From positions 1 to 38,890 of the forward strand of contig CACZWA010000013.1 of the NCBI GenBank assembly GCA_902784685.1: 38,890 nt of DNA. Reading direction: 5' to 3'. The DNA comes from an uncultured Ruminococcus sp. (GTDB lineage Bacteria; Bacillota; Clostridia; RUG12999). The position numbers and the translations under genes were made by a program. The notes below the pieces were generated by a model. It did no database searches, had not been told where the DNA came from, and saw nothing but the letters and a program-made list of their open reading frames with translations. Positions 4,484 through 15,893 of the stretch are shown one piece after another (the stretch's first letter is position 1; each line of letters begins with the position of its first letter).

Positions 4484-8032
<3,549 letters not shown>

Positions 8033-8098: not shown

Positions 8099-10333
8099 CT
8101 ATGGTATAAGAATTACAGCTTCGCATATCGGTCTAATACTGTCTCCCTTTTCAAAAGCCATAACCTTTATTTCATCAAACTCCCCTTTTAAAGTACTCAC
8201 AACTTCATATTCACCGAAATCCTCTTTGTGATAAGCTGTAAGGCGCTTGTTACTGTATGCCGCAATTACAACATCACAAGCCTCACTAACATTGTTAATT
8301 TGTGCTCTCACCGTGTAACTTGTTCCTTCTGTTGTAACCTCTGCCAGAAGCTTTGGCTTAGGAACACTCCAATGTGCATATAGATTTTTACAAGAAACGG
8401 AAACAGCCGATTCTTCGGTTATCTGCACTCCTCCGTCAGCTGAATCATACCAACCTTCAAAAACTCTCCCGTTACAGTCATTTAATTGAGGTAATGTGCC
8501 ATAGCTACTGCCAACCATAACGTTTTTCCCCTTTTCAATAAGCCGTGAGTTTTCATCCCATATCTGCAATTCATTTGTATCTATATTGTAAACTGCGTAA
8601 TCTCCCTCTTCTACGTTATCACATAACCACGATGAGGCTGTTCCGTTGCCGGATGCTATGAATCCCTTATGCGGAACAGTTGCATTTCCCTTGTACCATT
8701 CGAGTTTCTCAACCCTACCGTTAGCACCTACAAGAATTTCAGTACCCCACGAATTAGTTCCTGTGGTCTGCTCACTGTTATTGTATATAACCATTTTGTC
8801 CGCACCCCTGCCACCGTTAACCAAATCGGGATAATATACTGCTTTTGGCGCAATTATAAAGCCATCATTATTACAATTAAAGTTGATTTTTTCTATATTT
8901 ATTTTTTCAATATCAAAAAGCTGTGAGTTTGTTCCTTTAATAGTATAAGTTTGTACATTTGCGCCTTCGCTTGCTGCTAAAAAATCAGCTACATGTTGTG
9001 TACACTTTGCCCTTAAAATATAACGACTGCCATTTTTATAAATATACCATTTCTGCGCATTGTTACCATTATCGCCTGCAACCTTGATATTCGTTGCTGC
9101 AAATGTACCTGCCAAATGAACATCTAAACACAAATTATCGTAGTATGAAACTATCTTATAGGAATAATCATCATACCTTACAAAATGCCACCATTGGTTT
9201 TCATTGTTCTTATATTCTCTCATCGAAACATTGATTGAATCATTTGTAAAGCACATATCGTAATAAGGATTTATAATTTTTGCATCAAAGTCTTCACCCA
9301 AATCAATATTACAACCTGCTATGTGCGACTCTATTGTGAACAGCTGAACATTAGTTCCGTTAGCTGTATATGTCCATACGTTAGCTCCGTCTCCTGTTGT
9401 GATGTTATCAACATCTATTACGCAGCTTGTGCAAAGGGCACGCAAAACATACTTATTCTGCGAACCTGTTATTGCCCACTTCTGAGCATTACCCCCATTA
9501 TCTGTCGCAACTTTTATATTTGTCTTTATACCGGTACCTGACAAATGTACATCAAGACATTTTGATGTATCTTTCATTGATATTATCTTATATGTTCCAT
9601 CGCTGTTCCTTATAAAATGCCACCACTGACTATCGGAATTTGAATCAGTTCTTACCGAGACATTATCTGAATCATTTGTTAGGCACAAACCATAATAAGT
9701 ATTTTTTATCTTTGCATAAAAATCTCCACCCAAATCTACATATGCATTCAAATCTTTATAATCATTTCCATTTTGATGCCTTATGTATCCGTATCCCGAA
9801 CTCATGACAAGCTTTTTATTCACCTTTGTCTGAAGTTCAGACTTTGAAATTGTTCTGTCCCATTTTATTTTATTTGAATAACTTACACTGCCAACTTTGC
9901 CGCCATTACAATCGGTATAATATAATGTATTTCCGTCAATACCGGTTATTATGATTGAATGGTCATATTCTATTGTAGAGTTATAACGCACATAATCCCC
10001 TATGCATATGTTGTTTACATTAGTATGAGTCTCTCCTGTTGAAATGCTTTTCTCCCAAAGAGTATCATAAACTTTACATCCCCAAGCTAAACACTGCCAA
10101 GAGCCATAACCCGATAAATCCTTATATCCCATGCTGTATCCGCCAATATCGCTATCATATATCTGCGCATTATAAAATTTGGTTTGCGAGGTTCCGTCAG
10201 GATATTGACTTTTTAACGAGTCAAGTCTTTGTTTAATAGTATCCTTTGTCGGAATGGCAGCACTTACCGTCATAAAATGACAAACAAACATTAATATAGA
10301 TACCAACAAAATCATTATTATACTCTTTTTCAT
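8099..10333 (-). CDS. Secreted multidomain protein: papain-like cysteine peptidase domain, two ricin-type lectin domains, InlB-type repeat
   Basis: A 744-residue exported protein with no family name I can give as a whole. Residues 1-25 are a signal peptide ending SAA. Residues about 45-165 look like a secreted papain-fold peptidase or amidase: C81 in GSWQCLAWG, H125 in YDHSIIIT, and D141/N143 in YYTDCNGG as the third polar residue. Two beta-trefoil ricin B-type units follow at about 199-337 and 342-478, with SQWWHF, NAQKW and NVQLF/NSQLF repeats; they are tandem copies. Residues about 488-596 form a beta-rich module (VPHKGFIASGNGTASSWL) recalling the tail of phosphodiester-glycosidase proteins (weak). 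About 600-656 is a Listeria-Bacteroides InlB repeat (VFEGWYD, LYAHW), then an 85-residue C-terminal beta domain. No LPXTG, membrane anchor or dockerin is seen. It likely binds carbohydrate and cuts peptide or peptidoglycan outside the cell; the substrate is unknown. A divergent XRE gene probably controls it. Confidence 0.8.
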   Translation of the reverse strand: MKKSIIMILLVSILMFVCHFMTVSAAIPTKDTIKQRLDSLKSQYPDGTSQTKFYNAQIYDSDIGGYSMGYKDLSGYGSWQCLAWGCKVYDTLWEKSISTGETHTNVNNICIGDYVRYNSTIEYDHSIIITGIDGNTLYYTDCNGGKVGSVSYSNKIKWDRTISKSELQTKVNKKLVMSSGYGYIRHQNGNDYKDLNAYVDLGGDFYAKIKNTYYGLCLTNDSDNVSVRTDSNSDSQWWHFIRNSDGTYKIISMKDTSKCLDVHLSGTGIKTNIKVATDNGGNAQKWAITGSQNKYVLRALCTSCVIDVDNITTGDGANVWTYTANGTNVQLFTIESHIAGCNIDLGEDFDAKIINPYYDMCFTNDSINVSMREYKNNENQWWHFVRYDDYSYKIVSYYDNLCLDVHLAGTFAATNIKVAGDNGNNAQKWYIYKNGSRYILRAKCTQHVADFLAASEGANVQTYTIKGTNSQLFDIEKINIEKINFNCNNDGFIIAPKAVYYPDLVNGGRGADKMVIYNNSEQTTGTNSWGTEILVGANGRVEKLEWYKGNATVPHKGFIASGNGTASSWLCDNVEEGDYAVYNIDTNELQIWDENSRLIEKGKNVMVGSSYGTLPQLNDCNGRVFEGWYDSADGGVQITEESAVSVSCKNLYAHWSVPKPKLLAEVTTEGTSYTVRAQINNVSEACDVVIAAYSNKRLTAYHKEDFGEYEVVSTLKGEFDEIKVMAFEKGDSIRPICEAVILIP
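8900..9739 (-). repeat. Tandem duplication encoding the two ricin-type lectin units
   Basis: Protein residues about 199-337 (9323-9739) and 342-478 (8900-9310) align end to end: LGGDFYAKI/LGEDFDAKI, CLTNDSDNVS/CFTNDSINVS, QWWHF in both, CLDVHLSGT/CLDVHLAGT, NAQKW in both, and NVQLFTIE/NSQLFDIE. Each copy is roughly 410-420 bases. They have diverged in protein sequence, so this is an old internal duplication within the gene and not a fresh repeat. Confidence 0.85.
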
Positions 10334-11838: not shown

Positions 11839-13749
11839 TCAGCCTATTTTCGTTCCGCTCGGCATATCGCCGTCAACGGTCAAAAGAACAAGATTTTTGT
11901 CGTCCGCCGCCGCAAGAAGCATACCTTTAGACTCTATTCCCCTTATCTTTGCAGGTTTAAGGTTTGCAACAAGCACAATATTTTTACCGACAATGCTTTC
12001 GGGGGTATAATTTTTTGCTATCCCCGAAACAATAGTGCGTTCTTCGCCGCCGAGGTCAATTTTCAGTTTGAGCAGCTTATCGGCTTTTTCAACCTTTTCC
12101 GCCGCAAGCACTTTTGCAACACGCAAATCAATTTTTTCAATATCTTCAATTGTGATTTCCGGCTTTATATCAAGCTGAGGCTCCTGCGTATTTGCCGTAA
12201 GCTCTTCAAGCATCTTCTTTTCGTCAATTCTTGCAAACAGCGGAACTGCCTCGCCCACTTTCGTTTCCGCCTTGAAGTTTCCAAAGCTTTCAAGACTGTC
12301 TGCGCCGCAATCTGCGGCATTTATCATTGCAAGTATTTTCTCGCCTGTTTCGGGCATAAACGAAGTGATAAGAATACCGATAAATCTGATTGCTTCAATA
12401 AGGTTATAAAGAACCGTACCGAGTCTTTCCTTGGTTTCTTCACTTTTTGCAAGCGTCCACGGCGTTGTTTCGTCAATGTATTTATTGCTTCTTCTTGCAA
12501 GATTCATAATTATTTCAAGACTGTCCGCAACGTGATGACCCTTCATTGCCTCGCATACGTCTTTATATGCTTTAACCGCCGCAGCTTTAAGCTCACCGTC
12601 CGTGCCTTCTTCCGCACCGGGGCTTGGTACAGTTCCGTCAAAATACTTATTAACCATAGCAACTGTACGGTTTACAAGATTTCCGAGAATATTTGCAAGG
12701 TCGGAATTATACCGTGCAATAACCATTTCATAGGTTATACTGCCATCATTTGCAAACGGCATTTCGCTGAGTACATAGTAACGCACAGCGTCAACTCCGA
12801 ATTTCTCGGCAAGCTCGTCGGCATAAATAACATTACCCTTTGATTTACTCATTTTATCGTTTCCGAAAAGCAGCCACGGATGACCGAAAACCTGTTTCGG
12901 CAACGGCTCGCCGAGTGCCATAAGAATAATCGGCCAATATATTGTATGAAAACGAAGAATATCCTTGCCGATTATATGCACATCTGCCGGCCAGTATTTT
13001 TTATAGTTTTCGCCTTTGGCTTCCGGAGAATATCCGAGAGCGGTAATATAGTTTGAAAGTGCGTCAATCCAGACATAAATTACATGTTTATCGTCAAATT
13101 CAACGGGTACGCCCCATTTGAACGAGCTTCTCGAAACGCACAAATCCTGAAGTCCCGGCTTTAAGAAATTATTAACCATTTCTTTTTTTCGGGATTCGGG
13201 CTGTATAAATTCGGGGTTATCTTCAATATATTTCATAAGCCTGTCCGCATACTTGCTCATTTTAAAGAAATATGCTTCTTCCCTCGTTGGTTTAACAGGT
13301 CTGCCGCACTCGGGGCAACAGCCGTTAACAAGCTGTGTTTCGGTGAAACACGACTCACAGGGTACGCAGTACATACCCTCGTATTCGCTTTTATAAATAT
13401 CGCCTTGCTCATAAAGCTTGGTAAATATCTTCTTTACGGCTTCTTCGTGATAATCGTCGGTTGTGCGGATAAACTTGTCGTAGCTGACATTCATTTTATC
13501 CCATATTGTACGGATTTCGCCCGCAACCTTATCAACATAAGCTTTTGGGCTTATTCCTGCTTCCTTTGCAAGTTCTTCAATTTTCTGACCGTGTTCGTCC
13601 GTTCCCGTAAGGAAGAAAACATCGTAGCCCTGAAAACGTTTGAATCTCGCAATGGCATCGGTTAAAATAGCCTCATATGTGTTACCTATATGGGGCTTGC
13701 GTGATGTATATGCGATTGCCGTTGTGATATAAAACTTTTTATCTTCCAA
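11839..13749 (-). CDS. metG: Methionyl-tRNA synthetase
   Basis: Charges tRNA-Met with methionine using ATP. The 636-residue class I enzyme has the HIGH-type motif as HIGN at residues 20-23 (common in this clostridial group), two CxxC knuckles in the connective domain (CVPC, CCPEC), WIDALSNYI, and KMSKS at 299-303. The C-terminal 110 residues form the EMAPII/Trbp111-like OB-fold tRNA-binding domain (IDLRVAKVLAAEKVEKADKL), which normally mediates dimerisation. A promoter lies 47-75 bases upstream. The leader is only about 40 bases, so there is no T-box or SAM riboswitch. It leads an operon with the AlkD-like gene and probably acpP. Confidence 0.97.
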   Translation of the reverse strand: MEDKKFYITTAIAYTSRKPHIGNTYEAILTDAIARFKRFQGYDVFFLTGTDEHGQKIEELAKEAGISPKAYVDKVAGEIRTIWDKMNVSYDKFIRTTDDYHEEAVKKIFTKLYEQGDIYKSEYEGMYCVPCESCFTETQLVNGCCPECGRPVKPTREEAYFFKMSKYADRLMKYIEDNPEFIQPESRKKEMVNNFLKPGLQDLCVSRSSFKWGVPVEFDDKHVIYVWIDALSNYITALGYSPEAKGENYKKYWPADVHIIGKDILRFHTIYWPIILMALGEPLPKQVFGHPWLLFGNDKMSKSKGNVIYADELAEKFGVDAVRYYVLSEMPFANDGSITYEMVIARYNSDLANILGNLVNRTVAMVNKYFDGTVPSPGAEEGTDGELKAAAVKAYKDVCEAMKGHHVADSLEIIMNLARRSNKYIDETTPWTLAKSEETKERLGTVLYNLIEAIRFIGILITSFMPETGEKILAMINAADCGADSLESFGNFKAETKVGEAVPLFARIDEKKMLEELTANTQEPQLDIKPEITIEDIEKIDLRVAKVLAAEKVEKADKLLKLKIDLGGEERTIVSGIAKNYTPESIVGKNIVLVANLKPAKIRGIESKGMLLAAADDKNLVLLTVDGDMPSGTKIG

Positions 13750-13824: not shown

Positions 13825-13847
13825 GTACTTTTAATAAAAAACTGAGA

Positions 13848-14009
13848 AAAGCTCCGCCAAACGGCGGAGCTTTCAGCTTAATGACAAAGTCATTAAGCTG
13901 AGCAGAGGCTGAGAAGCGAAGGTATATTTCGTCCTTTAAAACTCGTCGGCGTACATAGGTACGGTAGAGATGTCAGCACTCTGAAAGCTCCGCCAAACGG
14001 CGGAGCTTT
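13848..14009. repeat. Non-coding element bounded by two identical hairpins, with a third long hairpin inside
   Basis: The same 26-base hairpin, an 11-bp stem AAAGCTCCGCC with loop AAAC, occurs at 13848-13873 and 13984-14009. Directly after the first copy is a second perfect hairpin, CAGCTTAATGAC with a 3-base loop, at 13874-13900 (12-bp stem). The remaining 83 bases contain a small hairpin CGTAC/GTACG near 13950-13963 and no open reading frame worth calling. Either outer hairpin could terminate minus-strand transcription from the transporter gene ending at 14026, but two identical copies plus a third structure look more like a REP/MITE-type dispersed element. Its occurrence elsewhere in the genome cannot be judged from this window. 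Confidence 0.7.
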
Positions 14010-14025
14010 TAACAACTCAAAACCT

Positions 14026-15630
14026 TTATGCCTGTTTTTTATCCGCAGTAACGGATTTTATTACAAACAATGTAGCAATCATAAGAACTATTGCTACGGG
14101 AAGGCAAATCCATACATTCTTTACGAAACCGGAAATTATGTACGAAACAAACGAAACGGCCGCAACCGTAATTGCATACGGAAGCTGTGTCGAAACGTGG
14201 TTAATATGGTTACACTGTCCTCCTGCGGACGACATAATTGTCGTATCGGAAATAGGTGAGCAGTGGTCGCCGCAAACAGCACCTGCAAGACAAGCAGACA
14301 TACCGATTATAAACAGCGGATCGCTCGGAGCAAACATTGCTGTTACTATCGGAATAAGAATACCGAATGTTCCCCAAGATGTACCTGTTGCAAAAGCAAG
14401 AAGGCAAGCAACAAGGAAGATAACAGCCGGAAGGAAGCTTGCAAGACCGGTGGCGGCGTTCTTCATAATTCCGTCAACGTAATCTGCGGCGCCGAGAAGA
14501 CCTGTCATATTTTTAAGGGTTGTTGCAAAGGTAAGAATAAGAATTGCCGGTACCATTGCTGTAAAGCCCTTCGGAATACATTCCATAGCTTCTTTAAAGC
14601 TTACAACTCGTCTTGCAACAAGATAGATAATTGTAACAACAAGTGCAATGAGCGCACCCCACGGAAGACCTACGGTTGCATCTGTATCACTGAAAGCGTC
14701 AACAAAGCTTGCACCGCTGAAGAAGCCGCCGTTATAAATAAGAGCTACTACGCAAATTGCAATAAGCACAACAATCGGAAGTACAAGGTCGATAACCTTA
14801 CCCTTTGAAGAAGGAGCTTCTTCGGGTACTTCTGCTTTTTCGCCGCTTGTATAAAGGTCGCCTTTTTCAAGTGCGTTCTTTTCGTGAATTTTCATCGGGC
14901 CGTAATCAAACTTCATAAGAGAAATTGCAATTACGAAAACAAGTGTAAGAAGCGAATAGAAGTTAAACGGAATCGCTTTTATAAAGAGTGCGATACCCTG
15001 TCCTTCGGGAGCGTAGCTCGAAACTGCCGCAGCCCATGAAGAAATCGGAGCAATCATACATATGGGAGCCGCCGTTGCGTCAATAATAAACGCAAGCTTT
15101 GCTCTTGAAATTTTATGACTGTCTGTTACAGGGCGCATTACAGAACCAACTGTAAGGCAGTTGAAATAGTCGTCTATGAAAATAAGTACGCCGAGTGCAA
15201 AGGTTGCAAGCATAGCGCCGGGTCTTGTTTTAATGTTCTTCTTTGCCCATGCGCCGAAAGCCGCACTACCGCCTGCCTTGTTTACAAGAGCAACAATCGT
15301 GCCGAGTATAACAAGGAAGATAAAAATACCGGCAGTATCCGCAACAGCCGCCATAAGACCGTCCTCTACAAGTCTGTCCATAGCCGCAACCGGAGCAAAA
15401 TCAGCCGCAAAAAGCGCACCGACTACAATACCGATGAAAAGAGAAGAATAAACTTCTTTTGTGATAAGCGCAAGTCCGATTGCGATAATCGGCGGAATAA
15501 GCGCCCAGAAGCTCGCATACATTTTCGGAGCTTCGTCTTCGCCTGCAGCAAAGCAACAGACTGTCATTGCCAGCATGAGCATTACCGTCAGAAGCGAGGT
15601 GGCGGTAAAAGCCTTTTTAAAGTTTTTCAT
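14026..15630 (-). CDS. NhaC-superfamily transporter, predicted lysine transporter (LysW type)
   Basis: A 534-residue multi-spanning membrane protein of the Na+/H+ antiporter NhaC family, with about a dozen hydrophobic segments and the family motifs FIDDYFNCLTVGSVMRP, ATAAPICMIAPISSWAA, ATGTSWGTFGILIP and CGDHCSPISDTTIMSS. Family membership alone would suggest Na+/H+ exchange. However, the gene lies directly behind a lysine riboswitch with its own terminator, and the NhaC-like LysW group was proposed as lysine importers from exactly this association. Lysine uptake is therefore the better call; it remains inference. The first 30 residues look like a cleavable signal peptide (FKKAFTATSLLTVMLMLAMTVCCFAAG), an unusual addition for this family. 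AAGGAGAG precedes the ATG. Confidence 0.85.
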   Translation of the reverse strand: MKNFKKAFTATSLLTVMLMLAMTVCCFAAGEDEAPKMYASFWALIPPIIAIGLALITKEVYSSLFIGIVVGALFAADFAPVAAMDRLVEDGLMAAVADTAGIFIFLVILGTIVALVNKAGGSAAFGAWAKKNIKTRPGAMLATFALGVLIFIDDYFNCLTVGSVMRPVTDSHKISRAKLAFIIDATAAPICMIAPISSWAAAVSSYAPEGQGIALFIKAIPFNFYSLLTLVFVIAISLMKFDYGPMKIHEKNALEKGDLYTSGEKAEVPEEAPSSKGKVIDLVLPIVVLIAICVVALIYNGGFFSGASFVDAFSDTDATVGLPWGALIALVVTIIYLVARRVVSFKEAMECIPKGFTAMVPAILILTFATTLKNMTGLLGAADYVDGIMKNAATGLASFLPAVIFLVACLLAFATGTSWGTFGILIPIVTAMFAPSDPLFIIGMSACLAGAVCGDHCSPISDTTIMSSAGGQCNHINHVSTQLPYAITVAAVSFVSYIISGFVKNVWICLPVAIVLMIATLFVIKSVTADKKQA

Positions 15631-15711: not shown

Positions 15712-15893
15712 GGTTGCAATAGCTCTCCACTAAAATAAGTGACAGTGCAATGCATATTCTGCATTACCCCGGCGGCGATTTCTTCGGGCAAAAAACCGCG
15801 CCTCGGCACTCTCCCCTTTCGCCGCTTACGTTTGCCCAAAATTAAGCGGGTACTGATGAATTGTGCGCCTCTACTTGCGATAACCAATTTTAC
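15712..15893 (-). ncRNA. Lysine riboswitch (L box) aptamer
   Basis: Read on the minus strand the leader carries the hallmarks of the lysine aptamer in order: GTAGAGGCGC, CAGTA, GGCGAAAGGGGAGAGTGCCG, and near the 3' end CTGTCAC followed by AGTGGAGAGCTATT. The first and last segments pair to close the five-helix junction (GCAAGTAG with CTATTGC). The predicted start point, near 15893, falls right before the aptamer. A terminator follows at 15657-15694, so control is by premature termination of the transporter mRNA. Confidence 0.95.

Follow-up and report, generated by a model that had tools for sequence, protein, structure and literature searches.

A decayed MITE-like element, very probably moved by IS1182-family transposases, inside a duplicated transcription terminator of an uncultured Ruminococcus

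The window analysed here, a stretch of 38,890 nucleotides from an uncultured Ruminococcus sp. (assembly GCA_902784685.1, contig CACZWA010000013.1), carries a patch of hairpins between the end of a gene for an antiporter-like transporter and the start of metG, both of which are encoded on the minus strand. Only 16 nt separate the end of the antiporter-like gene from the second copy of the outer hairpin, and the terminator of this gene is probably what served as the insertion target discussed below. A lysine riboswitch (RF00168, 98 bits) was identified at 15712–15881 on the minus strand, just upstream of this gene, which suggests that its product is a lysine-regulated transporter; its match to the Tet(35) model is far under the cut-off (204.6 against 750 bits). 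Elsewhere in the window, long direct repeats of 51 and 92 nt with a spacing of 432 nt (9146–9309 and 9578–9741) lie within an ORF at 8099–10333 (minus strand) and perhaps represent an internal domain duplication. The features of the locus are as follows.

11839–13749, minus strand: methionine--tRNA ligase gene metG (NCBIfam NF008900, 920 bits, above cut-off)
13848–13873, no strand: terminator stem-loop copy 1, the left target-site duplication, identical to 13984–14009 (the syntenic empty site of genome G003 has one different hairpin)
13874–13900, plus strand: left end of the element, hairpin e, a 12-bp hairpin (CAGCTTAATGAC/GTCATTAAGCTG) with the left terminal repeat as its 5' arm (helix 1, where relatives show paired changes)
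13901–13970, plus strand: 5' part of the structured core, with the 5' strands of P1 and P2 and the P3 hairpin at 13951–13962 (match to RNA model R1; BLAST loci)
13970–13971, no strand: junction of an internal deletion (comparison with the longer copies L003, L004, L005, L010 and L014)
13971–13983, plus strand: right end TGTCAGCACTCTG, the remaining right terminal repeat (reverse complement CAGAGTGCTGACA; conserved end of the family)
13984–14009, no strand: terminator stem-loop copy 2, the right target-site duplication (identity to copy 1; family-wide pattern)
14026–15630, minus strand: Na+/H+-antiporter-like transporter gene (three NCBIfam matches, all under curated cut-offs)

The two outer hairpins, AAAGCTCCGCCAAACGGCGGAGCTTT, have an 11-bp stem and an AAAC loop and start 136 nt apart. 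The hairpin that adjoins the first of them, CAGCTTAATGAC-AAA-GTCATTAAGCTG, is perfect over 12 bp, or 13 bp if one flanking base is counted, and the small inner stem of 4 bp reads GTAC-ATAG-GTAC. Positions 13848–14009 are free of ORFs of at least 80 aa. Coordinates and ORF check alike agree with the original prediction, made from the letters alone, of identical 26-base hairpins at both ends, an abutting 12-bp hairpin, an inner stem and no ORF. A palindromic 20-mer that recurs within 400 nt was found once in the window and in none of 50 random sequences of its length drawn from an order-2 Markov model; the hairpin repeat exceeds chance expectation.

A search of the genome with positions 13840–14015 returned 30 loci (loci are denoted here by L and genomes by G, with G000 for the genome of the window). 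An RNA model built on the 5' half of the element (R1), which matches the window copy at 13902–13999 (E 1.1e-10), has 28 matches in the 1.55 Mb of G000, 17 in G002 and 7 in G001, and none in G003, a genome of the same genus. The original prediction had proposed this search of the genome and its relatives as a check, and the dispersed repeat family that it offered as one reading is what the search recovered; the outcomes named as speaking against it, absence of a second copy and conservation of a single terminator, were not what we found. Among 391 genomes drawn from the class, 32 were R1-positive, including G000, and these represent 25 of 222 genera; among good-quality genomes of the class the count was 21 of 318, and of 398 genomes sampled across the phylum G000 alone was R1-positive. 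A pattern scan of named genomes yielded at least 116 stretches. Among the 80 matches listed, all titles are of Clostridia, comprising Oscillospiraceae, Ruminococcus, Clostridiales/Eubacteriales MAGs and Ructibacterium gallinarum DSM 107454, many of them from animal guts. One viral contig matched the element, and phage and plasmid records searched with the single copy L014 gave no match.

Each locus has its own flanking hairpin sequence around a constant interior, which assigns the hairpins to the insertion sites and not to the element. The 162-base unit originally delimited at 13848–14009 therefore has to be trimmed: because the outer 26-nt hairpins are a duplicated terminator target, the element in the window is the 110-bp interior at 13874–13983, which is an internally deleted copy. 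Longer copies, bounded by CAGCTTAATGAC and CAGCACTCTG, span ~240 bp, and comparison with them shows that the window copy is without ~130 nt, namely the 3' strand of P2, P4 and P5. The terminal inverted repeats of the longer copies in the same genome, CAGCTTAATGACAAAG and CAGAGTGCTGACAAAC, are imperfect (11 of 16 nt alike), those of many relatives are CAGCGTGTCGATAAA and CAGACTGTCGAAAAA, and the type found in most relatives is CAGNNTGTCGANAAA; in the window copy the right repeat is cut down to CAGAGTGCTGACA. With a full length of ~240 bp, 30 loci in its own genome and no room for a gene noticed in the copies examined, the family is short, multicopy, dispersed and gene-less, as are MITEs. An ORF-bearing version was sought through the distance from core to right end, through far-lying end motifs and, for part of a set of 14 genomes, by reading right ends, and none was found. 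Where long interiors were encountered, they proved to be variants or sequence that was nested or inserted (L126, L156), and the IS ends described below emerged from this search.

In L005 the right end and the start of the target hairpin are repeated (TTTGTCAGCACTCTGGGTGCG), a possible trace of slippage or of an aborted transposition. L329 (G000:C109:3855–3886) is a lone left-end hairpin without core, located between two different terminator-like hairpins.

Filtering of the retrieved loci left 191 distinct copies, of which 73 had both ends recognised and 72 also had sufficient flank. With a local score of at least 12 as the criterion, left and right flanks match in 64 of these 72 copies, as opposed to 3 of 710 mismatched left/right pairs used as control. 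The duplicated segment is 16–42 nt long (median 25 over the 64 copies), contains a stem with a score of at least 6 in 62 of them, and directly abuts the element (gap 0) on the left in 54 and on the right in 55. Eight of the 72 copies failed the duplication test. By eye, three of these (L075, L156 and L180) are mis-called left ends, and in the other five (L010, L032, L038, L135 and L184) the hairpins are different or have no match, as might result from decay or from recombination between copies. In L156, a second, diverged core-like element on the reverse strand (~4550–4870) is apparently nested within the P5 hairpin of another copy and, read by eye, seems to show a hairpin duplication of its own. 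"Type B" copies have neither hairpin e nor hairpin copy 1, and a relic of copy 1 would be expected at their junction. At least 8 nt matching the beginning of hairpin copy 2 were present at 9 of 24 such junctions and in 9 of 552 mismatched pairs; of the nine, three were mis-sorted and still have hairpin e (L033, L066, L169), three with a score of 20 are probably artefacts of overlapping windows (L027, L131, L192), and L021, L070 and L257 remain. These counts are only suggestive of a retained relic.

One could suppose instead that a terminator was duplicated locally, or copied by gene conversion, to give the second hairpin, and that the insert is unrelated debris. The two flanking hairpins have different loops in L033, L041 and L059 and are altogether different in L135 and L184, as such a history would allow; however, in most of the 64 copies the duplicated hairpins abut the ends of the element exactly, and intact insertion sequences, described below, show the same pattern. 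This reading is strongly contradicted, and we consider it barely credible. As to L033, L041 and L059, their matching stems with differing loops imply that the stems seem to have been maintained on both sides after insertion.

Empty sites, which the original prediction had suggested looking for in other strains, were found in genomes of relatives. When 43 query rows from G000–G002 were compared with stretches of G003, both flanks occurred at one place for four of them (the window locus, L014, L038 and L053), and each of the four sites has one terminator-like hairpin. The L014 site in G003 keeps the same CGCACGA stem, while the sequences of the other three hairpins differ between the species. 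A fifth site, that of L080 of G287 compared with G304, again has a single terminator-like hairpin. The filled copies have two matching hairpins in four of the five cases, the exception being L038, which is without a matching left one. The family thus combines target-site duplication (64/72 against 3/710) with five syntenic single-hairpin empty sites, as a MITE does. By nearest ORFs, the 191 copies lie between convergent genes in 72 cases, in ++ context in 28, in -- context in 25 and between divergent genes in 3, and 63 have one side lacking ORF assignment. The orientation of the element relative to genes is unbiased, and the gene-context counts are the pattern expected for a shape-specific target without strand preference.

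The same observations bear on the idea that the patch is a fixed regulatory RNA between two terminators, either a small RNA gene or an attenuator, that does not move. A conserved, covarying fold in the family (see below) and the hairpin-rich nature of 3' regions would suit it, but copies are found at unrelated loci with locus-specific hairpins, empty sites exist, and the window copy is without most of the fold. We regard a fixed RNA as very improbable.

The ends of the element, of the CAGNNTGTCGANAAA type, match the terminal repeats of insertion sequences (IS) of the IS1182 family, and the two share the type of target as well. At six contig ends of G288 and at one locus of G084 (L363), the right-end sequence of the element, beside a terminator hairpin, opens a longer element in which an open frame begins ~75 nt inside; the leading nucleotides identical between IS end and short-element end number 16 in G084 and 18 in G288. 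The G084 frame (L396) runs for 288 aa to the contig edge and matches NF033551, the IS1182 model, with 242.7 bits, which is under the cut-off because the frame is truncated; it is 70% identical to the L428 transposase over an alignment of 289 columns. The 21 readable residues of the G288 frame resemble L397 of G015, an internally deleted NF033551 match that is flanked by two different hairpins.

Clostridial IS that carry the ends of the element also match NF033551. We assembled 32 IS1182-type loci above the cut-off of this model, 29 from the class survey and three from G109. In eight of them (L420, L421, L422, L424, L425, L428, L429 and L440) an IS with these ends lies between two copies of one stem-loop; L426 has these ends with two different hairpins, and L432 starts at a contig edge. 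The transposases of L421 and L429 carry the Pfam domains DDE_Tnp_1_6 and DUF772. Targeting of palindromes or terminators, reported for some IS1182 members, is thus seen both in the short element and in 8 of the 32 IS1182-type loci. Taken together, the shared ends, the IS ends beside terminators in two carrier genomes and the eight loci make a MITE-like passenger of an IS1182-type IS the most likely identity of the element. The non-autonomous mobile repeat among the original readings is upheld by the dispersed loci, the flank duplication in 64 of 72 copies and the identical pattern of these IS.

The assemblies of G000, G001 and G002 have no match to NF033551, and no genome was found with a complete IS of the subgroup plus the short element, the G084 copy running off its contig and G288 holding only ends. 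Co-occurrence across the 391 genomes lends no support to this identity, the IS1182 model matching 8/32 of the element-positive genomes against 149/359 of the others, in a comparison where the model spans far more than the end-sharing subgroup and assemblies break inside IS. We infer that the element was mobilised in trans by an IS1182-type enzyme unseen in the assembly of its own genome. The window element differs from the IS1182-type IS in having no transposase and in carrying a structured core that is absent from the IS: R1 finds nothing under E 0.48 in 34 IS1182-type loci.

The core was modelled as a 65-pair fold, an RNAalifold consensus with hairpins e and P5 added by hand. Alignment A2 comprises 24 copies from G000, G001, G002 and G017, of which 11 lack hairpin e, and omits the internally shortened L009, L050 and L059 and the window copy (alignment A1 omits L009, L020, L032 and L050). 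In A2, 92.8% of the cells are standard pairs, and two-sided changes number 102 cells as opposed to 33 in shuffles, with 0 of 500 shuffles as high. A second set of 98 distinct rows from 100 loci, which was aligned to the model and is hence biased towards it, has two-sided changes in 13 of 13 P2 pairs. Wobbles at paired positions are G-U in 142 cases and A-C in 8 in these model-aligned rows (95 and 33 in A2, a MAFFT alignment), and this excess of G-U implies that the plus strand of the element folds, as RNA or as single-stranded DNA. Neither the window nor sampled relatives have an Rfam 15 match above gathering threshold at the element. At relaxed E-value, csRNA, GcvB, RsmY, hammerhead and other families matched, but all under the gathering scores, and these matches were rejected; the sole intron match of Rfam, at 7600–7784 of L195, lies outside the element. 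As to the small RNA bounded by hairpins that was originally considered, the longer copies of the family do hold what is predicted to be a conserved folded RNA, but the window copy has lost ~130 nt, and with them most of the fold.

One would not expect a plain MITE to carry a conserved RNA fold, and this counts against the explanation that we favour. On account of this fold, our first idea was RNA-mediated retrotransposition, in which the core RNA would be reverse transcribed in trans, for instance by a reverse transcriptase (RT) of group II intron type, and inserted by target priming at terminators with a duplication as long as the hairpin. Folding on one strand, the two-sided changes throughout P2 and the lack of an ORF-sized interior among the copies examined all fit such a route. 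Group IIC introns, too, are structured RNAs that insert next to intrinsic terminators, downstream of them. Such introns, however, have catalytic domains and an RT and are not known to make a target duplication, and the intron models of Rfam have no match at the element in the window or in sampled relatives and so give no indication of catalytic intron domains there. Further, both ends of the element match terminal repeats of IS that encode DDE transposases and make the same duplication, and insertion is unbiased in orientation relative to genes; nor did we notice A-tails or a systematic 5' truncation. The idea was dropped once the IS ends were found, and retrotransposition now appears improbable to us.

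The explanation that we consider very probable is that 13874–13983 is a decayed, non-autonomous MITE-like element that was moved by IS1182-family DDE transposases and lies inside a duplicated terminator. An IS1182-type transposase would recognise the terminal repeats, and insertion would take place at the palindrome of a transcription terminator, probably extruded as a cruciform or folded. On each strand the end of the element would be joined to the 5' foot of the hairpin, and gap filling would then copy the entire stem-loop onto both sides. The sequence outside the two hairpins would stay unchanged, as a rule A-rich ahead of copy 1 and T-rich behind copy 2, and genes on either side should therefore retain a terminator whichever way they are transcribed. 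Their transcripts would traverse the element before reaching the outer terminator.

This mode of insertion has a partial precedent in staphylococci. As reported in two papers (Furi 2016, PMC4923244; Wan 2017, PMC5678879), IS1272 and TnSha1 of the IS1182 family target stem-loops, several of them confirmed terminators, show no primary-sequence preference at the target and are found in both orientations. Like the present element, they are DNA elements bounded by terminal repeats, with stem-loop targets and both orientations. Unlike it, IS1272 deletes or replaces the target hairpin, according to these reports, and leaves no duplication, a trait of IS1272 rather than of the IS1182 family by definition; ISCaa15, also of this family, is tabulated with 4-nt direct repeats in PMC3196728. 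Duplication of the whole hairpin fits instead the hypothetical pathway b in Fig. 13 of Wan 2017 (PMC5678879), in which the stem-loop would be duplicated if the joining took place at its 5' feet.

Among prokaryotic MITEs, BOX, RUP and SPRITE of Streptococcus pneumoniae (PMC3049150, PMC10969869) are similarly short, multicopy, intergenic and able to form RNA hairpins; the core of the present element differs in having no Rfam 15 family match. The MITE review has zero occurrences of IS1182, and the portions considered contain no whole-terminator duplication. Likewise, none of the open-licence papers listed in our literature searches describes, by its title and the opening lines of its abstract, an IS1182-type MITE with whole-terminator duplication or such a core RNA; a paper on 5S-rRNA expansion (PMC7812874) concerns a different phenomenon and was set aside. 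The kind of element is thus already known, and, within the literature searched, the novelty lies in the regular duplication of whole terminators and in the fold conserved inside the longer relatives.

The family provides an example from natural genomes of an outcome that Wan 2017 (PMC5678879) drew only as a possible pathway, namely stem-loop-aimed transposition that duplicates an entire terminator. It also places a covarying fold without Rfam 15 match inside a MITE-like element of 25 of the 222 class genera sampled. There is an outside chance that the core is a working RNA of the element rather than a sequence remnant, and that this short DNA transposon depends on it, either for bringing the IS1182-type transposase to terminator hairpins, by recruitment or guidance, or for shielding the host transcript that passes through the element. 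The family would then be, with a similarly small likelihood, a DNA parasite common across Clostridia that is terminator-specific and RNA-assisted. Were the core RNA functional, it would be a structured RNA tied to DNA transposition beyond the known guide-RNA systems. In practical terms, such elements break assemblies and put false terminators and RNAs into annotations. For the host, an element that lands on a terminator and copies it should leave one terminator on each of its outer sides, a plausibly near-neutral haven that could account for 28 copies in a genome of 1.55 Mb.
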